NCBI RefSeq assembly: GCF_001245615.1
Contig: NZ_CWKH01000001.1
Location: 3,038,001-3,102,000, forward strand
Reading direction: 5' to 3'
DNA: 64,000 nucleotides
DNA from: Mycolicibacterium neworleansense
GTDB lineage: Bacteria; Actinomycetota; Actinomycetes; Mycobacteriales; Mycobacteriaceae
Positions 1 to 18,441 of this stretch are shown here, in pieces. The notes below the pieces were generated by a model that saw only the letters and a list, made by a program, of their open reading frames with translations, was not told where the DNA came from and made no database searches. Numbering within the stretch: position 1 is the first letter of the stretch; every line of letters starts with the position of its first letter. The position numbers were made by a program, and so were the translations under genes.

Positions 1-650
1 ACGACAAGCGACAGCACGGGATAGAGCACCGAATAGAGCCACTGCCCGCCCGTCAACGTGACCTGGTCGAACGCGGCACCCAACAACAGCAGGGGCCCTT
101 GGGTCGGCACGACATGGAGCACGGGATGCGGCCATAGGCCCGAGTAGTAGATCAGCGGCGGCACCAGCATGATCGCCAGCGGGATGGTCGCGGCCAGAAA
201 CCAGTCGGTGACCGAGGCGAACGGCAGCGAAGTGATGAACCCGACCAGCAGCATCAGCAGCGTGCCGAGCACCACCCCGAGGATCAAAGGCACCGGGTGA
301 TAGGCGAATCCGTCTGCGACAGTTGACACGACAATCGCCACGAACAGCGAGATGGCCACCAGCACCACGAGTTTGGCGACGAGGTACTCCCAGAACCGCA
401 GCGGCGTGGCGATGATTGCGCCGAGCGTGCGTTCCTGCTTCTCGAAGAACACCGAACCGCCGACGAAGAAGAACCCGATGATCGCGATGTCGCCGGCCAG
501 CACATAGGGCTCGGCGACCGGGCGCAGATCGCGCGGCATCGGCAACAGCACCGCCAACCAGATCAGGCCCGAGAACACCCCCGCGTGCAGGAACTTCTGC
601 CGGGTCGCAATGGTCAGTTCGAGCCGGGTCGCGGTGAGCAAGCGGGTCAC
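1..650 (-). CDS. ABC transporter permease (3' part outside window)
   Basis: This is the membrane subunit of an ABC exporter; about 216 residues are present and the C-terminus lies beyond the window edge. The translation starts VTRLLTATRLELTIATRQKF and has several hydrophobic membrane segments (for example FSGLIWLAVLLPMP and LVAISLFVAIVVST). It resembles the permeases of the Rv2686c-Rv2688c fluoroquinolone exporter type. The GTG start at 650 overlaps the stop of the upstream ATPase gene, so the two are translationally coupled. Family membership is from reading only; the exported substrate is unknown. Confidence 0.75.
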   Translation of the reverse strand, partial: MTRLLTATRLELTIATRQKFLHAGVFSGLIWLAVLLPMPRDLRPVAEPYVLAGDIAIIGFFFVGGSVFFEKQERTLGAIIATPLRFWEYLVAKLVVLVAISLFVAIVVSTVADGFAYHPVPLILGVVLGTLLMLLVGFITSLPFASVTDWFLAATIPLAIMLVPPLIYYSGLWPHPVLHVVPTQGPLLLLGAAFDQVTLTGGQWLYSVLYPVLSLV

Positions 651-11143: not shown

Positions 11144-11647
11144 TCAGAAATCCCCGGAATGTCGGCGCAGCGTCTCGATCGACGCCACGAGGGCCTGCGA
11201 CTCCTCATCCGACATCCCGACGTCGGCGAACACCTGCTCGTTGAGGGTCACGGTGGCGTCCTCGACGGTCGAGCGCCCCAGCTTGGTGATCTGCACCAGC
11301 GTGGTGCGACCATCGGTGGGGTGCGGGATCCGCTCCACCAGACCATTGGCCTCCAGGCGGCGGATGGCGTGCGTGACGCTGGTGACGTGTACCTGCAAAC
11401 GATCGGAGGCCTTGGTGATCGGCAGCGCACCGGCCCGGCTGAACGCCAGCAGACGCAGCAGTTCGAACCGCGAGAAGCTCAGATCGTAAGGCCGCAGTGC
11501 GGACTCCACCCGGGCCAGCAGGATCTGGTGGGCACGCATCACCGACGTCACCGCGACCATGCCGCCGGCCACATCGCCCCATCCGGCGGCCTCCCAGTTC
11601 GCGCGGGCCTGCGCGATGGGGTCACGCTTGTCTGTTGGCGAGGGCAC
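11144..11647 (-). CDS. MarR-family regulator (Rv0737-like)
   Basis: A 167-residue winged-helix regulator. The HTH region reads LPITKASDRLQVHVTSVTHAIRR, with the recognition helix and wing in LVERIPHPTDGRTTLVQIT. I chose the GTG at 11647 (VPSPTDKRDPIAQ); the open frame upstream runs antisense through the aminotransferase gene and is not coding. In M. tuberculosis Rv0737 directly follows rslA (Rv0736); here the four-gene biosynthetic operon and a methyltransferase are inserted between. It lies 71 bp after the aminotransferase stop on the same strand, so read-through from that operon is possible. Confidence 0.85.
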   Translation of the reverse strand: MPSPTDKRDPIAQARANWEAAGWGDVAGGMVAVTSVMRAHQILLARVESALRPYDLSFSRFELLRLLAFSRAGALPITKASDRLQVHVTSVTHAIRRLEANGLVERIPHPTDGRTTLVQITKLGRSTVEDATVTLNEQVFADVGMSDEESQALVASIETLRRHSGDF

Positions 11648-11718
11648 GCCTCTTCTTACCGCATCGCCGCGCGGCGCCGGGCAGCGATGCACGCATCGAC
11701 CCCGGCCGCGCCTGCGCT

Positions 11719-12753
11719 TCAGGCGGCCGCCGTCACCGCCCCCAGCACCGCACGGGTGGACTGCCTCGATCCGACGGTGATCCGCACTCCGCCGTCGGCG
11801 TAATGGCGGACCTGAAGTCCGGTGCCGTCGAACACCTCCGGCCATCGCCGGTACCCGCCGGGCAGGTAGAGGAAGTTGGCCTGCCCGTCGGTGCTGTACA
11901 CGCCGAGCGCCCGCAATCGCATCTGCAGATAGCGCCGTTCCGCGGCGATCATCCGGATACGTTGGCGTAGCTGGTTTTCCGCATCGTAGGAGGCGGCGAC
12001 GGCCACCTGGGCGCTGAGCCCAATGCCGAACGGCAGCTGCATCTGCCACAGCTGACGGGCGAGATCGGGGGCGCAGAACCCGTAGCCGATCCGCAGGCCG
12101 GCCAAGCCGTAGGCCTTCGAAAAGGTCCGCACCACCACGACATTGCCGAACCGGGCCACCAGGCTCGGTCCGTCGATGCGCTGTTCGGCGGTCAGGAATT
12201 CCACGTAGGCCTCGTCCAGCAACACAACGGTGTCCTCGGGAAGCCTGGTCAGGAAGCGCTCGATCGCACCAGACGGTTCGACGGTGCCCGTCGGGTTGTG
12301 CGGCCGGCAGACCGCCACCACCCTGGCGCCCTTCGCGGCCTCGGCCATCGCATCCAGATCGTGGTGGCCGTGCGCATCGAGCGGAACCGTCACCGTCCGC
12401 AACCGCGCCATCTGCGCGAAGATCGGATATCCGTCGAAGGTGGGCTCCGCCATCACCATGGTGTCGCCCGGACTGGTCACCGCATGCAGCACCTGCATGA
12501 TCACCCCGGTGGCACCGGCGCCGACGATCACCTGCTCCTCGGCCACGCCGTCGTGACCGGCGATCAGCGAGCGCAACCGCTGCGGGAGGAATTCCGGGTA
12601 CCGGTTCGCGGCCTCGTCGCACGCGCGCAGCGCCGAGCGCACCGCGGGCAGCGGCGGGAACGGGCATTCGTTGAGCGACAGCGCCAACGGGTTCACCGCC
12701 TGCGGCAGCGCGCCGACCACGTCAGACAGTGCGGTGCGCGGTGCCACCATCAC
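11719..12753 (-). CDS. PLP-dependent aminotransferase (HisC-like), biosynthetic cluster
   Basis: A 344-residue fold-type I aminotransferase resembling histidinol-phosphate aminotransferases. It has the Asn-Pro motif (PHNPTGTVEP), the cofactor Asp in VLLDEAYVEF (about residue 180), the PLP Lys at about 213 in RTFSKAYGLAGLRIGY, and a C-terminal Arg (GGVRITVG). Last gene of a four-gene operon; its GTG start overlaps the ketosynthase stop by 4 bp (an ATG one codon later is also possible). A dedicated role in transaminating a keto intermediate made by the upstream ThDP enzyme and ketosynthase is inferred; housekeeping histidine synthesis is unlikely in this context. Confidence 0.85.
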   Translation of the reverse strand: MMVAPRTALSDVVGALPQAVNPLALSLNECPFPPLPAVRSALRACDEAANRYPEFLPQRLRSLIAGHDGVAEEQVIVGAGATGVIMQVLHAVTSPGDTMVMAEPTFDGYPIFAQMARLRTVTVPLDAHGHHDLDAMAEAAKGARVVAVCRPHNPTGTVEPSGAIERFLTRLPEDTVVLLDEAYVEFLTAEQRIDGPSLVARFGNVVVVRTFSKAYGLAGLRIGYGFCAPDLARQLWQMQLPFGIGLSAQVAVAASYDAENQLRQRIRMIAAERRYLQMRLRALGVYSTDGQANFLYLPGGYRRWPEVFDGTGLQVRHYADGGVRITVGSRQSTRAVLGAVTAAA

Positions 12754-13799
12754 ACGTTCCCCAGGTCGGCGGTGTTACCGGCCCGGCCACCCCACCGGAC
12801 GGCGGCGGCCCCGGCGAAGTCACCGGCGTGGGCGAAGGCGGCCATCAGCACGGTGTCGCCGGCCTTCACCCGCCCGCCGGTGACGGCCCGGTCGAGATTG
12901 ACCGGAATGCCTGCGGCGAAAAGGTTCCCACATTCGTCAAAGGTGTCGACGTGACGCTCGGCGGGCAGTTCCAGCGCGTCGCGCCAGTTCCGCAGGAACA
13001 CCCGGTTGGGCTGATTGGTGACGAACAGGTCGATGTCCTTGGGCTGCACACCGATCCGGTCGCAGACGGTATAGGACACCTCGGGGACCTGCCGGTTGCC
13101 CCGGGCCAGCACCTTGGTGATCTTGCTCTCGGTGAAGCCGATGCACGCCTCCCCCGGGCCGGCCTGCCACCATTTGCGCGGCGGATCCATCACGACGGTC
13201 ATGTCACCCGCGTACTCCCCGTAGGTACGGCATTCGATGTCGAGGATCGGGGACTGGTCAGACAGCGTCACCAGCGCCACCGCAGCGCCGTCTCCGGGAA
13301 CCGCCGCCTGCGCCTTGCGCCGGATGGTCTCCTGATCGAAGACCTGGCCGGCGGAGTTCTGGGCGATCGCGATCACCGCGGTCCGGCCCTCTCCCGCGCT
13401 CAACAGCGTGCGGGCCACCTTGAGCCCGAGGACGAAGGCCGCGCACCCGCCGTTGTGCAGGTCGATCACCCAGTTGGGTTTCATCCCCAGCCGGTGCGCC
13501 ATGCCGCCACCGCCGCCGTAGAACGGCATGTCGGGCAGTTGGGTATGGGTGATCAACACGTCTGCCCCGGTGATGGCGTCGGCACCGTGCCGCTCGATCA
13601 ACCCGGCGGCGGCCCGCTCGACCATGTCGATCGCGGTCTCCTCGGGCCCCACATGATGGCGGAACCGCGGTGCCCGGAACATCACGTTGTCGGCCAGCTC
13701 ATCGGTCTCGGCGAACCCCGCGTAGTACTCGGCGCTGATCGGGTCGCCGGGCAGATAGGTGGACAGGTCGATGAGGCTGACGGGAGTCGTCTCGATCAT
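12750..13799 (-). CDS. FabH-like ketosynthase III family protein with altered triad
   Basis: A 349-residue thiolase-fold protein of the KAS III family. The nucleophile Cys is at about residue 119 (LHNGGCAAFVLGL). The usual His of the HQAN motif is replaced by Asn262 (FVTNQPNR), while the second Asn (N292, CGNLFAAGIP) is kept. The C-terminal AAFAHAGDFAGAAAVRW replaces the usual glycine-rich segment. This pattern argues against standard decarboxylating condensation and for acyl transfer or a modified condensation. It sits 9 bp after the SRPBCC gene and overlaps the aminotransferase, third in the operon. Confidence 0.82.
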   Translation of the reverse strand: MIETTPVSLIDLSTYLPGDPISAEYYAGFAETDELADNVMFRAPRFRHHVGPEETAIDMVERAAAGLIERHGADAITGADVLITHTQLPDMPFYGGGGGMAHRLGMKPNWVIDLHNGGCAAFVLGLKVARTLLSAGEGRTAVIAIAQNSAGQVFDQETIRRKAQAAVPGDGAAVALVTLSDQSPILDIECRTYGEYAGDMTVVMDPPRKWWQAGPGEACIGFTESKITKVLARGNRQVPEVSYTVCDRIGVQPKDIDLFVTNQPNRVFLRNWRDALELPAERHVDTFDECGNLFAAGIPVNLDRAVTGGRVKAGDTVLMAAFAHAGDFAGAAAVRWGGRAGNTADLGNV

Positions 13800-13808
13800 G
13801 GTGGGGCC

Positions 13809-14489
13809 TCACTTCATCCAGGCCGGGGTGACCGGCAGACCGTTGCGGTGCCGGTATTCGGCGATCGCCTTGAGGTTTCGCAGTTCCAGCAGGTGGCCGG
13901 GGCCGAACATGTCCCAGAAGTCGCCCACCCAGACCGGCCGCGCCGGGGGCGCGGTCTCCGGGTAGGGGTTCTCGTCGTAGAACGGATGGTGGCAATTCGT
14001 CCACAGCACAACCGATCCCGGCTTGTCCAGCACCACCTGCGCGTCGACGATGCGCATCAGGTAGATCATCCACAGATGCTTGCCCTGATCCCAGGCGCAG
14101 TGGTAGTCCACGGTGAGTGCGTCGCGGTTGGCCACGGTGCGGGTGTAGATCTCGCTGCCCGGTCCCGACGGCCCGGCGCCGAGCCGGTCGTGGGCCAGCC
14201 ACAGCCCGGGCTCCTCGGTCTGGGTGAAACCGCGCAGGCTGTAGGTCCACTCCTCCAGGCAGCGGGTGTCGGACAGGTAGTCGAACAGCTCTTCGGGTGG
14301 GCACTCGATGTAGTCGTTGACCGTGCAGTACTCACCGAACACCTGGTCGTGCGGGTAGACCGACCGCATCATGTCCATGATGATCGGAGTGGCCTGCTCC
14401 TTGGGCGAGGTCTCGATGCGGATCAGTCCGTCCAGCGGGGTGCGGGTGGCCCGATGGGCCGTGATGTCTTCAAGTGCGGGCAGTGACAT
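13809..14489 (-). CDS. SRPBCC-like (START/Bet v1 fold) protein, biosynthetic cluster
   Basis: A 226-residue protein read as SRPBCC-like. The segment around CPPEELFDYLSDTRCLEEWT is the classic entry of the helix-grip fold, followed by alternating strands and a Trp/His-rich stretch (LWTNCHHPFYDENPYPE). Such proteins act as cyclases, lyases or lipid/ligand carriers in biosynthetic clusters. I chose the ATG at 14489 (MSLPALEDITAH), which overlaps the end of the ThDP gene by 20 bp; the longer frame upstream is antisense-type noise within that gene. Exact activity unknown. Confidence 0.7.
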   Translation of the reverse strand: MSLPALEDITAHRATRTPLDGLIRIETSPKEQATPIIMDMMRSVYPHDQVFGEYCTVNDYIECPPEELFDYLSDTRCLEEWTYSLRGFTQTEEPGLWLAHDRLGAGPSGPGSEIYTRTVANRDALTVDYHCAWDQGKHLWMIYLMRIVDAQVVLDKPGSVVLWTNCHHPFYDENPYPETAPPARPVWVGDFWDMFGPGHLLELRNLKAIAEYRHRNGLPVTPAWMK

Positions 14490-16212
14490 GGGACCTGTTC
14501 TCCTGTGCGATCGAAGGGGTGCTGTCAGCGGGGGTGAGAAATGCTGCGAACGGCGGGATTTCGTCGGCTGAACATTCGATGCTGAGCACCGACGGACCGT
14601 CGGTGTCCAGCGCCATGCCCAGCGCCTGGGGCAGGTGCCGGGACTCGGTGACGTCGTACGCGGGAAGGCCGGGGAACATCGCCGCCAGGCCGGCGCCCAG
14701 CCGGCTCGGGCCGAACCTGTTGTAGGAGTATCGATCGTCGTAGAACAGCTGTTCGCGGGTGACGCACATGGCGTGCGCGTGGTTGTCGAACAGCACGAAG
14801 GTGATCGGCAGCCGGTACTGCAGTGCGGTGTGAATCTCCATGCCGTGCATGAAGAATGAGCCGTCACCGGCGATCACCACGGTGCGGCGGTTGGGCACAG
14901 CGCCGACGGCCGAGGCTCGGTGAAACGTCATCCCGATGCCGGCACCGAAGCTGTAGCCCATCCCGCCCATGCCGAGCGCGACCATGAAGCGGCCGTCGCG
15001 CCGGGCCGGCAGATAGTGGATGGCCGAGGCCCCGACGTTGCCCGCGTCGACGACGATGTCGGTGCCGTCGGGCAGGGCACCGTCGAGCACGGCCATCGCG
15101 TCGCGGTAGCGGATTCCCGGCCCGTCGTGCGCCGGTGGTCGCAGTTCGGTGTGCGGCACCGTATCCGGCACCCTGACCTGGGTGGGGCGCCCGGGACCGG
15201 ACAGCGCCCGGGTCAGTTGCGCCAACGACTCGCGCAGGTCGCCGGAATGCACGTGGGCGCACGACGGGTAGGGCACCTGGGCGCCGATCGAGTAGGTCGC
15301 CACCGCACCCAGCACGCTGTCGAGACCTGCCCGGGCGGTCACCGTCATGCGGGTGCCGACGAGCAGACACAGTGCGCTCTGCGCTGCGGCGACGGACACT
15401 CCGGGATGGCCCATCACGCCGGCTACCCCTAGTGCCGAGGATGAGCCGAGCCCCGGGGTGCCCGCCACGTCTTTGGCATCGGGCACCGTGGCCACCCGCG
15501 CCCGCAGGGTGGCCCGCAGCTGTTCCAGTTCGGCACGGGCATCGTCGCGCGCCACCTGCTCGCCGGCGATGATGGTGATCGAGCCGTCGACCCGGCGCAG
15601 GGCCTGCTCGAGCACGCCGAGATCACCATGCCGTACCGCCTCGCTCCTGGCGACACCGCTGCCGTTGCGCGCAGCCGGCTCCCCCAGATCGGCCTGCTGA
15701 ATGTTCTTGGGCAGTAACAACACCGCGGGCCCGCCGGTGCGAGCGGCGGCCAGCGCGTCGGGCAGCGCGGTCAGGATGTCCGCGGGTGTCAGCACCCGGC
15801 GGCAGTACAGCGAGACCGCCGAGAACAAGGCGTGCCCGTCGAGGCTTCCGTTTTCACCACTGGTGTCCTGGAAGGCGCCGCGGCCGTCGAGTGTCGTCGG
15901 CGCCTGCCCGATCAGGGCCAGCACGGGCACCCGGCTGGCCAGCGACTCGGCCAGTCCCGGCACGGTGTTCAGGCAGCCACCGCCTGACGTCGCCGCCACC
16001 ACGCCGATCCCGGCGCCGCTGCGGCTGTATCCGTCCGCCATTGTGGCAGCGGAGAATTCGTGCTTGGCCAGAACCGCGGTGAGGTCGTCACAGAAGTGCG
16101 CCGCGTCGTACAGATCTTCGATGTTGGCACCGTCGACACCGAAGATGTGCGAGACGCCATTGGCGGCCAGATAGCCGACGATGTGGTCCACCACCCTGTG
16201 CGCCTTGACCAT
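14470..16212 (-). CDS. Thiamine diphosphate-dependent enzyme (acetolactate synthase-like)
   Basis: A 580-residue three-domain ThDP enzyme. The catalytic Glu is at about residue 52 (LAKHEFSAATMADGYSR). The PYR domain motif is SGGGCLNTVPGLAESLASRVPVL (read in two halves, GGGCLNTVPG and LAESLASRVPV). The Mg/ThDP-binding motif is GDGSFFMHGMEIHTA with the downstream Asn/His in VLFDNHAHAM. It likely decarboxylates a 2-keto acid and carboligates or forms an aldehyde. It is not the housekeeping IlvB: it lacks an adjacent small subunit and stands first in a four-gene operon behind a SigL-type promoter. Substrate unknown. Confidence 0.85.
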   Translation of the reverse strand: MVKAHRVVDHIVGYLAANGVSHIFGVDGANIEDLYDAAHFCDDLTAVLAKHEFSAATMADGYSRSGAGIGVVAATSGGGCLNTVPGLAESLASRVPVLALIGQAPTTLDGRGAFQDTSGENGSLDGHALFSAVSLYCRRVLTPADILTALPDALAAARTGGPAVLLLPKNIQQADLGEPAARNGSGVARSEAVRHGDLGVLEQALRRVDGSITIIAGEQVARDDARAELEQLRATLRARVATVPDAKDVAGTPGLGSSSALGVAGVMGHPGVSVAAAQSALCLLVGTRMTVTARAGLDSVLGAVATYSIGAQVPYPSCAHVHSGDLRESLAQLTRALSGPGRPTQVRVPDTVPHTELRPPAHDGPGIRYRDAMAVLDGALPDGTDIVVDAGNVGASAIHYLPARRDGRFMVALGMGGMGYSFGAGIGMTFHRASAVGAVPNRRTVVIAGDGSFFMHGMEIHTALQYRLPITFVLFDNHAHAMCVTREQLFYDDRYSYNRFGPSRLGAGLAAMFPGLPAYDVTESRHLPQALGMALDTDGPSVLSIECSADEIPPFAAFLTPADSTPSIAQENRSHVTART

Positions 16213-16240
16213 GTGTCACCTACTTCCGTGCTCTGCAATT

Positions 16241-16268
16241 GACACGACCGGTGGGATTCCCGGGTTCA
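16241..16268 (-). promoter_or_regulatory. SigL-type promoter of the four-gene biosynthetic operon
   Basis: On the minus strand: TGAACC (16268-16263), 16-bp spacer, CGTGTC (16246-16241), ending about 28 bp before the ATG of the ThDP gene. It matches the SigL consensus reported for M. tuberculosis (TGAACC then CGTgtR). It has the same spacing as the promoter in front of sigL in this window. This links the operon to SigL control. Confidence 0.72.
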
Positions 16269-16393
16269 CCGCGGGCACGGATTTTTGGAAACTCCCTGCC
16301 ACACCCCAGGAGACGCCCAGCCGGTCTCGGTAGAACTGGGCATAGTGGAGGGAAAGGCCCAGGGGCCGGCTCGACCACGATCGGAGGCATCAG

Positions 16394-17056
16394 GTGACAC
16401 AGCCGTATATGGATTGGGACGCGGCCTACCGGCAGGACACCCCGCCGCCGTGGAGCATCGGGGAACCACAGCCCGAGCTCGCCCGCCTGATCGAGCAGGG
16501 CAAGGTGCACGGCGAGGTCCTCGACTCGGGCTGCGGCCACGCTGCCTTGTCCCTGGCGCTGGCGGCCAAGGGGTACCACGTGGTGGGGCTCGATGCCAGC
16601 GCCACGGCGGTGGCCGCGGCGGCCGCCACCGCGGCCGAACAGGGCCTGACCACAGTTACTTTCGCGCAGGCCGACATGACCGACTTCGGCGGTTACGACG
16701 GCCGCTTCGACACCGTGCTGGACAGCGGGCTGCTGCACGCCCTGCCGATCGAGGGGCGCCAGTCCTACATCCGGGCGATCCACCGCGCCTCGGCACCGGG
16801 CGCGGTGCTGTTCATCCTGGCCTTCGCGACCCGGCCCTTCGGCGGCACCACCCCGGGACCGACCGGCTTCACCGCCGACGAGTTGCGCGATACGGTGGCC
16901 ACCTGCTGGACCGTCGACGAGGTGCGCCCGGCCAAGCTGTACGGCAACGACACCCCGGCCGCCGGCGGGCCGGCGTCACTGCCCGGCGTGGAGCGGGACG
17001 GTGCCGGGCACATCACCATGCCCGGCTTCCTGCTCAGTGCCCACAAGGACGGCTGA
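16394..17056 (+). CDS. Class I SAM-dependent methyltransferase
   Basis: A 220-residue Rossmann-fold methyltransferase. Motif I is VLDSGCGHAALSLALAA, the ribose-binding acidic residue is in VVGLDASATA, and the post-motif reads DTVLDSGLLHAL. The N-terminus MDWDAAYRQDTPPPWSIGEP matches the thiopurine S-methyltransferase-like/tellurite-resistance group that begins W(D/E)xxY. It is divergent from the biosynthetic operon and convergent with rslA (12-bp gap). It could methylate a product of the neighbouring pathway, but is common on its own. GTG start at 16394 after GGAGG. Confidence 0.82.
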   Translation: MTQPYMDWDAAYRQDTPPPWSIGEPQPELARLIEQGKVHGEVLDSGCGHAALSLALAAKGYHVVGLDASATAVAAAAATAAEQGLTTVTFAQADMTDFGGYDGRFDTVLDSGLLHALPIEGRQSYIRAIHRASAPGAVLFILAFATRPFGGTTPGPTGFTADELRDTVATCWTVDEVRPAKLYGNDTPAAGGPASLPGVERDGAGHITMPGFLLSAHKDG

Positions 17057-17068
17057 GCGCGATATCCC

Positions 17069-17803
17069 TCAGAGCTGCTTTTCCAGCAGCACCTTGCCTT
17101 CAGGGGAGGTAACCAGTTGCACCGCAGCGATATCCGCCATCGGCATCTGGGTGTTGCCGCTGGGCAGCGCGGTGGCGCCGGACAACCCGAGCCACGTCGC
17201 GACCTCGTTGCGGCTACCGTCCCGGCCGATCACCACCATGCCCAGGTTCTGCGGGGGCGCATCCTGCTTGCCCCAGCTCCCGTAACTGCAGGCCATGTCG
17301 ATCCGGGTGCCCCAGGAGTAACTGGTCATCGCGATGCTGGCGTTGATCGGCGTATCGGAGACCTTGTTCATCGCCAGCATCTGCGCGCTCTGCTGATCGG
17401 TGCCGCTGTGTAGGCCGAACACCTCGGGACGGATACCGACCACCACGGCGAGCGCCAGCAGCGCCGCGGCCACACCCACGGCCGCGGTGGTGATCCACCG
17501 CGAGCGGCGCCGCCGCCAGCTGACCTTGGCCAGCACGGACTCCAGCACCTCGGGCCGCAGCGGCGGATCCGGCTGTTCGGATTCCAGGGCCAGCACCTCG
17601 TCGAGGTCGAGCATGGCCAGCAGCGCGGGCATCCCGCTCAACTCGGCCACCGCGGAGCGGCACCGCTCGCAGCCCTCCAGATGGGCCTCATACTCGCGTC
17701 GCTCGGAGCTGTCGAGCGATCCCAGAACGTAGGCCGCATCCCAGGTCCGGTAGCGGTCGAATTCAACCGGATCGGGGACGTGGGGTACACCGAACTGTGT
17801 CAT
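17069..17803 (-). CDS. rslA: Anti-sigma-L factor RslA
   Basis: Membrane-anchored zinc-associated anti-sigma factor that holds SigL inactive until a redox signal releases it. The 244 residues contain the ZAS motif HxxxCxxC (H41, C45, C48 in HLEGCERC), a single membrane segment at about residues 105-127 and an extracytoplasmic domain of about 115 residues with a further Cys (DMACSYGSW). It overlaps sigL by 4 bp (ATGA), the standard sigma/anti-sigma arrangement. Synteny and length agree with Rv0736. Confidence 0.93.
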   Translation of the reverse strand: MTQFGVPHVPDPVEFDRYRTWDAAYVLGSLDSSERREYEAHLEGCERCRSAVAELSGMPALLAMLDLDEVLALESEQPDPPLRPEVLESVLAKVSWRRRRSRWITTAAVGVAAALLALAVVVGIRPEVFGLHSGTDQQSAQMLAMNKVSDTPINASIAMTSYSWGTRIDMACSYGSWGKQDAPPQNLGMVVIGRDGSRNEVATWLGLSGATALPSGNTQMPMADIAAVQLVTSPEGKVLLEKQL

Positions 17804-18327
17804 CGTGTCACCCCCATCTCTTGCAGGTTCAGTCGTAACGCGCGGACCGCGTAGTGCAGCCGTGATTTCACGGTTCCCTCGGGTATGTGCAGGTCGTCGG
17901 CAATCTGGCCGGTGGTCCAGCCCTGGTAGTAGGCCCGGCGGACCACGGCCCGATGTTCGTCGGACAGTTGGCTCAGCGCCGTGCTCAGCAGTATTCGGTC
18001 CAAGGCGTTGTCCACCTGGTCGGGAGTGGCGGCAGCCCCGGAGTGGTCTGCCACCTGCTCGGGATCGGCCACCCCGGTCTCATTGCGAAACCGAGCACTC
18101 CGGCGTTCATCAATGATCATGTTTCGCGCCACGGTAAACAACCAGGCCCGCGCGGACCGGTCGGTATCGGCGGTGACATCGGGGTGACGCCATGCACGCA
18201 GCAGCGTCTCCTGCACCACGTCCTCGGCGCGCGCACGGTCACCCGTGAGTCGCAGGGCGTAGCGCCACAGCGCGGCAGCGTGCTCGTCGTAGAGCACCCG
18301 CATCATGGCGGCCTCCGGATCATCCAT
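17800..18327 (-). CDS. sigL: ECF RNA polymerase sigma factor SigL
   Basis: ECF sigma factor; in M. tuberculosis SigL controls polyketide synthase and exported-protein genes. Region 2 is visible (LYDEHAAALWRYALRLTGD, DVVQETLLRAWRHP, RAWLFTVARNMIIDE), and region 4 includes LSDEHRAVVRRAYY and PEGTVKSRLHYAVRALRL. The C-terminus closely follows M. tuberculosis SigL. I chose the ATG at 18327 (175 residues), which has GGAGG 6 bases upstream; an ATG 12 codons earlier would lie too close to the promoter. Neighbours map, adk and secY match Rv0732-Rv0736. Confidence 0.94.
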   Translation of the reverse strand: MDDPEAAMMRVLYDEHAAALWRYALRLTGDRARAEDVVQETLLRAWRHPDVTADTDRSARAWLFTVARNMIIDERRSARFRNETGVADPEQVADHSGAAATPDQVDNALDRILLSTALSQLSDEHRAVVRRAYYQGWTTGQIADDLHIPEGTVKSRLHYAVRALRLNLQEMGVTR

Positions 18328-18344
18328 TCCCAACCTCCGCCTGT

Positions 18345-18372
18345 GATACGACGTGGGTGGCAATCCGGTTCA
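18345..18372 (-). promoter_or_regulatory. SigL-dependent autoregulatory promoter of sigL-rslA
   Basis: On the minus strand: TGAACC (18372-18367), 16-bp spacer, CGTATC (18350-18345), just upstream of the chosen sigL start. Both hexamers and spacing fit the SigL class, so SigL likely drives its own operon. Confidence 0.75.
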
Positions 18373-18441
18373 ATTACTACCTTTGCGCGCAGGCTTGCAC
18401 CAGAGTTGGCGCGCGTTTCAGGTAGTGATTGCTGGCGTTAA

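Follow-up and report, generated by a model that had tools for sequence, protein, structure and literature searches.

In a stretch of 64,000 nucleotides from Mycolicibacterium neworleansense (contig NZ_CWKH01000001.1, positions 3,038,001 to 3,102,000), here called the window, the gene sigL of an extracytoplasmic function (ECF) sigma factor and the gene rslA of its anti-sigma factor lie beside an operon of four genes, which encode a thiamine diphosphate (ThDP) enzyme, an SRPBCC protein, a beta-ketoacyl-acyl carrier protein synthase III-like (KASIII-like) enzyme and an aminotransferase. It appears likely that SigL and RslA directly control this adjacent operon and that the operon works like the machinery by which Streptomyces builds the carbazole core. 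Direct control of the ThDP operon by SigL is very probable and carbazole-core-like chemistry is quite probable, and the combined reading can be no more certain than these two halves allow. It draws on the promoters, their conservation and their linkage, and on homology and active-site residues.

An earlier reading of the same DNA, the original prediction, had proposed that SigL directly controls the operon and that the pathway is an uncharacterised one. The first proposal is supported by the sequence evidence: the site upstream of the ThDP gene is far more frequent than expected, it follows the linkage to sigL and rslA, and the promoter-reading residues of SigL are kept. As for the second, the operon would give SigL an adjacent pathway, and the word uncharacterised can be narrowed to carbazole-synthase type, the only relative of its cyclase in PDB being the carbazole synthase CqsB2. 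This resemblance to carbazole machinery is new.

Two promoters of the SigL type

The sigL gene and the ThDP gene had been described as preceded by minus-strand promoters of the same layout, and the coordinates, the strand and the 16-bp spacing of both are confirmed (Table 1). The pattern TGAACC-N15..17-CGTRTC occurs exactly twice in the window, when 0.05 occurrences are expected, and two or more were found in none of 100 dinucleotide shuffles. In the whole genome (6.29 Mb) the same pattern has six matches, compared with one for the reversed control pattern. The ThDP gene has just upstream of it the -35/-10 layout with 16-bp spacing that is expected of a member of the SigL regulon.

TGAAC(C) is taken here to be the -35 element of SigL. 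For the -10 element only, the comparison is with Mycobacterium tuberculosis, where the SigL element reads T-G-N-C/A-A-G after CG, and where His54 and Asp60 of the sigma factor set the specificity at positions '-12' and '-11' (PMC6372665). When the SigL of the window is aligned with the SigL structure 6dv9 (E=9.8e-76), His48 and Asp54 stand in the places of these two residues. The -10 element of the ThDP promoter, CG-T-G-T-C-A-A, fits the consensus except at '-7', where it has A for G, and that of the sigL promoter, CG-T-A-T-C-A-C, differs from it by A at '-11' and C at '-7'. The start sites in Table 1 were placed by the SigL -10 numbering of the same source, and the start of the ThDP operon would then be close to position 16235, where the original prediction had put it. 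Judged by G at '-11', which is present in 64 of 72 ThDP sites (all the strict sites described below) and in 19 of 58 sigL sites, the promoter of the ThDP operon looks like a better SigL target than the promoter of sigL itself.

Immediately upstream of the -35 element of sigL there is also an inverted repeat, CAATTACTACCT / AGGTAGTGATTG (window 18371-18382 and 18420-18431, with 37 nt between the arms), which is partly kept in relatives and is a candidate activator site.

Conservation of the promoter across mycobacteria

When genome contigs were scanned with the ThDP protein, 377 relatives were found, and the best 80 were kept as a set of loci. Of these 80 loci, 72 have the strict site, defined as TGAACY-16-CGTNT no more than 150 bp before the ThDP gene, against 0.12 expected from the pattern's background in these loci. 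The fetched flank holds a SigL or RslA relative at 75 loci, and among these the strict site occurs in 72 and a site with one base off in three (TGAACG in L025; CGTAG in L053 and L077). In the five loci that have no such relative in the flank (L033, L036, L039, L041 and L055) the strict site is found in none, and L055 and L039 have weaker look-alikes with 17-bp spacing.

The letters TGAAC and CGT-T are fixed by the search pattern, so that their conservation is by choice. The letters C, A and C that follow the -10 element were left unselected, and they are present in 37, 42 and 40 of 46 distinct sites (sites near the start codon that lack 14 bases downstream were dropped, and identical ones merged), while 13 of the 16 spacer columns and all 12 columns just upstream carry less than 0.8 bit each. 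The upstream sequences of the 80 loci are all distinct, and the site lies anywhere between -31 and -88 when counted from the first residue of the query. In many species, e.g., those of L044, L063 and L080, the site lies at -31 to -35; when a promoter is so near the start codon, and with the start sites placed by prediction, the transcript would have little or no leader. Upstream of sigL itself the motif is found in 58 of the 68 loci with a SigL match above 200 bits, when L017, which is cut by a contig end, is counted as being without it.

The history of the linkage was followed in a FastTree tree of the joined ThDP, SRPBCC and KASIII proteins, with the 96 rows that have all three (L016, L051, L053, L055, L152, L153 and L207 were dropped, so that L055 has no place in the tree). 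Mycobacterial rows are called unlinked when the fetched flank holds no SigL or RslA relative. The eight sigL-free rows form one clade (support 99), which is nested among linked mycobacterial rows and corresponds to one change of linkage. From this follows that the linked state, with the promoter, looks ancestral within the mycobacteria. Of the mycobacterial rows in the tree, L208 is the outermost; its SigL is 59% or 55% and its RslA 31% identical to the proteins of the window, and TGAACC-16-CGTGT nevertheless precedes both sigL and the ThDP gene.

In a sample of the genus, SigL is found at E <= 1e-40 in 131 of 148 genomes, a threshold that misses a second SigL-like factor even in the genome of the window. 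A near-full-length ThDP relative is present, among the matches listed, in 97 genomes of the genus, and in 81 of these sigL lies within 15 kb; in 14 the ThDP gene was not seen near sigL (in 11 the two are on separate contigs), and two have no SigL match. SigL occurs without a full ThDP gene in 36 genomes of the genus. A set of 26 copies, which are sigL-unlinked, split between contigs or in tandem, were examined, the gene start being unlocated in seven of them, L192 included. The strict site is present in four (L180, L182, L192 and L204), where L204 is about 19 kb from sigL, with the first copy on the same contig, and where the contig of L180 is as long as that of L054, a locus with an RslA relative. 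Two operon copies may also stand near sigL about 12.5 kb apart, as L038 and L064 or L052 and L057 do. Each of these copies has a SigL-type site of its own, and L038 and L057 are preceded by an RslA-like gene, where no SigL gene was found.

The strictest form of the site, TGAACY-16-CGTGTCAC, was searched for in 41 genomes (25 of the genus and 16 of other families of the order) and gave 14 matches in eight genomes, compared with three for the control. By their coordinates, five of the matches are ThDP promoters, three are sigL promoters and six lie elsewhere. The genome of the window has no match to this form, as the ThDP site there is CGTGTCAA and the sigL site CGTATCAC.

Other candidate sites in the genome

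One more element of the window's own genome may be a third site of the SigL type. It is a TGAACC-16-CGTATC sequence on the minus strand of contig C3 (266634-266661, locus L114), 77 bp before a gene for a transporter of the MmpL family. TGAACY-16-CGTNT is kept in seven of the 11 orthologues in near relatives (L211-L217), and there is a near-match in the other four (L218-L221).

Three further matches were rejected as SigL targets. The one at C1:1131015 falls inside an open reading frame of 469 amino acids, the one at C1:2512986 lies within overlapping reading frames with no clear downstream gene, and the one at C2:1286127, which precedes an aldehyde dehydrogenase gene and has a 17-bp spacer, is kept in none of 10 relatives.

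An operon with probable carbazole-core-like machinery

In carquinostatin biosynthesis the carbazole synthase is CqsB2, which needs no cofactor. Together with the aminotransferase CqsB7, the ThDP enzyme CqsB3 and the KASIII-like CqsB1 it makes up the carbazole-core set (PMC7466098), and the operon of the window has one gene of each of these four types, as do the Streptomyces pathways to carquinostatin A and, with NzsH, NzsJ and NzsI, to neocarazostatin A. The gene order ThDP-SRPBCC-ketosynthase-aminotransferase, all on the minus strand, had been read correctly. Genes 1 and 2 overlap by 20 nt and genes 3 and 4 by 4 nt, genes 2 and 3 are separated by 9 nt, and the SRPBCC start at 14489 is a chosen one inside the listed reading frame 13809-14867.

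Up to E=1 the sole relative of the cyclase in PDB is CqsB2 (6ipv), with 42% identity over 186 aligned residues, which places it in the CqsB2 family. Of the five catalytic residues of CqsB2, the window protein shares four (Tyr144, Tyr172, His206 and Glu209), and the fifth, Glu105, is replaced by Asp101. The corresponding Tyr143, Tyr171, His199 and Glu202 are invariant wherever the position is present in the 80 loci and the window (78-79 of 81 rows, the rest being gaps). The best-scoring database relative of the protein is from Mycolicibacterium boenickei (95%), and when it was scanned as a reading frame of 352 amino acids no Pfam or NCBIfam match was found.

The best PDB relatives of the ThDP enzyme are CsmA and BbmA. 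CsmA and BpmA (here BbmA) are described as homologues of CybE for alpha-hydroxy-beta-keto acids (PMC12395478). The best PDB relative of the aminotransferase is the putative phenylalanine aminotransferase 4r2n (E=1.7e-57), and its identity to the nearest other copy in its own genome is 38%; it would convert an aromatic amino acid to an aryl pyruvate. Counterparts of the acyloin synthase and the aromatic aminotransferase of a carbazole-core pathway are both present in the operon, with substrates that are predicted. In NCBIfam the scores of the ThDP enzyme stay far under the cut-offs of all 25 families shown, and those of the KASIII-like enzyme under all eight cut-offs; when the own genome was searched with the latter, only the enzyme itself was found at E <= 1e-10.

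Cyclase relatives at E <= 1e-8 were found in 29 of 343 genomes of another actinobacterial genus (f4/g7), and they fall in two groups: most have 48-59% identity, and four (L154-L157) have 41-45%. The four have the same enzymes in the order KASIII-cyclase-ThDP, with an aminotransferase near. There is an SQS_PSY-type prenyltransferase with a P450 in L155, and a second KASIII, a P450 and a NUDIX protein in L157, and from these extra genes the four loci are marked as carbazole-type clusters, which serve here as stand-ins for CqsB1 and CqsB3. In the window the order is instead ThDP-cyclase-KASIII-aminotransferase, and the eight loci that were examined from the 48-59% group share the order ThDP-cyclase-KASIII, with the aminotransferase next in four and not found in the other four.

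Alternative products and alternative sigma factors

A number of observations weigh against the combined reading, in part against carbazole chemistry and in part against SigL. With regard to the chemistry, the catalytic His of KASIII is replaced by Asn, giving Cys-Asn-Asn, in all 78 aligned mycobacterial rows that have the position, and from this follows that the enzyme may not perform the decarboxylative condensation of CqsB1. The triad is Cys-His-Asn in all four carbazole-type loci and Cys-Asn-Asn in all 11 other comparator loci. At the position of CqsB2 Glu105 the cyclase has Asp in 80 of 81 rows, and Glu in all four carbazole-type loci. In both respects the window differs from carquinostatin and neocarazostatin biosynthesis. 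Identity to L154-L157 is low, 24-28% for KASIII, 33% for the ThDP enzyme, 37-41% for the cyclase and 33-41% for the aminotransferase (33, 41, 40 and 41% to L154, L155, L156 and L157), and no prenyltransferase, acyl carrier protein (ACP) or second KASIII was found among the operon proteins scanned, the genome not having been scanned for ACP or prenyltransferase. The clade with Cys-Asn-Asn and Asp includes the mycobacteria, L150-L152 from other genera of the family, and L149 and L158-L164 from the f4 genus. KASIII His/Asn and cyclase Glu/Asp differ together between the two clades, and the operon is therefore classed as working like the carbazole core rather than as a member of the carquinostatin type. 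By its sequences, its machinery, which is likely to be carbazole-core-like, forms a clade of its own.

There is about an even chance that the operon is controlled by SigL and makes something other than a carbazole, such as another acyloin-derived ring or an acylated compound (e.g., an alkyl catechol or quinone, a furanone or a lipid ester), by means of the Cys-Asn-Asn KASIII and the cyclase with Asp for Glu. The active-site changes that separate its clade from L154-L157 speak for such a product, and the altered KASIII puts the chance of an actual carbazole a little below even. ThDP enzymes of the CybE type, among whose homologues are the best PDB relatives of the window's enzyme, also feed furanolides: in the cyanobacterin pathway the acyloin step is shared, and the ring is closed by CybF (PMC12395478, PMC13288894). 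A lipidic product is suggested by L209 (G087:C1:3062000-3081000), a sigL-unlinked second copy of the pathway, where a gene for an AMP-binding, acyl-activating enzyme lies between those of KASIII and the aminotransferase, and where the aminotransferase gene is followed by an MmpL gene whose product is 69% identical to the MmpL protein of L114. Against a product other than a carbazole, the only PDB relative of the cyclase is CqsB2, and the available text of the same two sources names no CqsB2-like cyclase in furanolide assembly.

With regard to the control by SigL, the relaxed pattern TGAACY-N15..17-CGTRT has 18 matches in the genome compared with eight for the control, about twice as many, so that relaxed SigL-like matches by themselves are weak evidence. 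At '-11', the position at which M. tuberculosis SigL shows its strongest preference for G, the sigL promoter of the window carries A; one of the four known SigL promoters of that species deviates there as well (PMC6372665). As the sigL-free rows form one clade, the contrast between site and linkage counts as one evolutionary event and not as five. The sigL-unlinked copies L182 and L181 have TGAACC...CGTAT upstream, with spacings of 16 and 17 bp, and of the two L182 is a real exception. In another genus of the family, L151 has TGAACC-16-CGTAT at -73 and no SigL or RslA match in the flank; no further comparator locus from outside the genus has the strict site, and L150 has a weak look-alike at -205.

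Another ECF sigma factor could use the ThDP promoter instead of SigL or together with it. A second SigL-like factor is indeed encoded in the same genome (C2:1088827-1089324; NF007227 E=2.9e-48, under the cut-off), and TGAACC-16-CGTAT is matched roughly 2 kb from it (C2:1091542-1091568). The sites of SigL, SigE and SigH are described as similar (PMC4821874), and L151, L181 and L182 carry such a site with no sigL gene in the flank or close by on the same contig. This alternative is nevertheless improbable when the strict site tracks the linkage to sigL and rslA among the 80 loci and has the layout of the promoter of sigL itself. Hardly credible is, finally, a non-functional site that owes its presence to chance and close kinship, as the nearest relatives do share much upstream DNA but the 80 upstream sequences all differ, their spacers vary while the unselected letters stay, the distance shifts, only 0.12 sites are expected, and the aldehyde dehydrogenase match, for comparison, is kept in none of 10 relatives.

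Neighbouring genes

Table 1. Features of the window, with positions counted from its first nucleotide
Feature	Position	Strand	Basis
SigL-type promoter of the ThDP operon	16241..16268	minus	TGAACC-16-CGTGTC; predicted start ~16232
SigL-type promoter of sigL-rslA	18345..18372	minus	TGAACC-16-CGTATC; predicted start ~18336
ThDP enzyme, 580 aa, acyloin (alpha-hydroxy-beta-keto acid) synthase-like, putative CqsB3/NzsH role	14470..16212	minus	TPP_enzyme N, M, C
SRPBCC (Bet v1-like) cyclase, 226 aa, CqsB2/NzsI-like	13809..14489	minus	PDB 6ipv E=4.6e-45
KASIII-like enzyme, 349 aa, putative CqsB1/NzsJ role	12750..13799	minus	ACP_syn_III, ACP_syn_III_C; triad Cys119-Asn262-Asn292
Class I/II aminotransferase, putative CqsB7 role	11719..12753	minus	Aminotran_1_2
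sigL, ECF sigma factor, 175 aa	17800..18327	minus	NCBIfam NF007227 272.7 bits, cut-off 202
rslA, zinc-type anti-sigma factor	17069..17803	minus	zf-HC2; PDB 3hug_B E=8.1e-22
Class I methyltransferase, divergent to the operon, in the interval that separates rslA from the ThDP promoter	16394..17056	plus
MarR-family regulator, follows the aminotransferase gene	11144..11647	minus	MarR match

RslA of the window keeps HxxxCxxC, a zinc site of the type that becomes oxidised in M. tuberculosis RslA, the structure of which is 3HUG (PMC2877774). The methyltransferase gene was found only in near relatives (among the rows listed, L002, L003, L004, L006, L007, L008, L082-L084, L086 and L087). The MarR gene stands behind the aminotransferase gene in most of the rows listed, and just upstream of it in the window (11661-11711) there are GC-rich inverted repeats, which may be an autoregulatory site.

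The gene that directly follows sigL-rslA in M. tuberculosis is rv0737, whose product binds the promoter of sigL-rslA and increases expression from it (PMC13002591). The MarR gene of the window is at the same syntenic place as Rv0737/Ms_1492 and, from its position, would be the orthologue. From the gene order in that source follows that the operon is not in this place in M. tuberculosis, a species that is not among the eight control genomes matching the SigL family. The available text of the source mentions no biosynthetic operon between rslA and the MarR gene, and in its main text the strings 'thiamin' and 'ketoacyl' occur 0 times.

Discussion

Under direct SigL control and carbazole-core-like chemistry, the system would work as follows. 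An oxidative (or other envelope) signal would make RslA release SigL, as is known for M. tuberculosis, and SigL holoenzyme would then transcribe the ThDP operon and also, from a promoter whose -10 element is weaker, sigL itself. The aminotransferase would supply an aryl pyruvate, most likely indole-3-pyruvate, which the ThDP enzyme would couple to a second alpha-keto acid, and to the product of this step the KASIII-like enzyme would attach an acyl group taken from acyl-ACP or acyl-CoA. Closure and aromatisation of a ring by the CqsB2-like protein would then give a catechol or ortho-quinone aromatic, and a carbazole when the donor is indolic.

The sigma factor, the zinc anti-sigma factor, the specificity residues and the promoter layout are common to the window and to the SigL-RslA regulon of M. 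tuberculosis, with its sigL, pks10 and Rv1139c promoters, whereas the targets described there are polyketide, cell-wall or exported-protein genes, unlike the operon of the window (PMC6372665, PMC2877774). Among the open-access papers listed, none was found that joins carbazole synthase genes with mycobacteria or the ThDP operon with SigL.

In at least one lineage the pathway appears to have been lost. L153, from a 4.5-Mb genome of the genus, has sigL-rslA, a remnant of the ThDP gene (residues 1-95) and, behind this operon remnant, the MarR gene, and the -10 element of the promoter reads CGTGG. If the MarR protein is the Rv0737 orthologue, the ancestral mycobacterial unit would consist of the sigma factor, the anti-sigma factor, the pathway and a MarR regulator of the sigma factor. 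Tentatively, then, the original and most conserved task of SigL may have been to switch on a pathway to a redox-active, carbazole-like quinone or catechol lipid in response to oxidative signals. This pathway would have been lost in the lineage of L153 at least and, to judge by gene order, probably also in that of M. tuberculosis, where SigL would have been kept with secondary targets only, and the product may be exported by the MmpL transporter whose gene is preceded by the conserved SigL-like site.

Most of what is known of SigL comes from M. tuberculosis, and in one sigL-deletion study of that species its reported target sets were not recovered, which the authors ascribe to experimental design (PMC10449499). 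A ThDP gene that lies beside sigL in 81 of 97 genomes, and that has a SigL-type promoter in the 80 loci with few exceptions, offers a direct test of what SigL is for. What is predicted is an aromatic metabolite of mycobacteria that would be made by a machine of the carbazole-synthase type with altered active sites.

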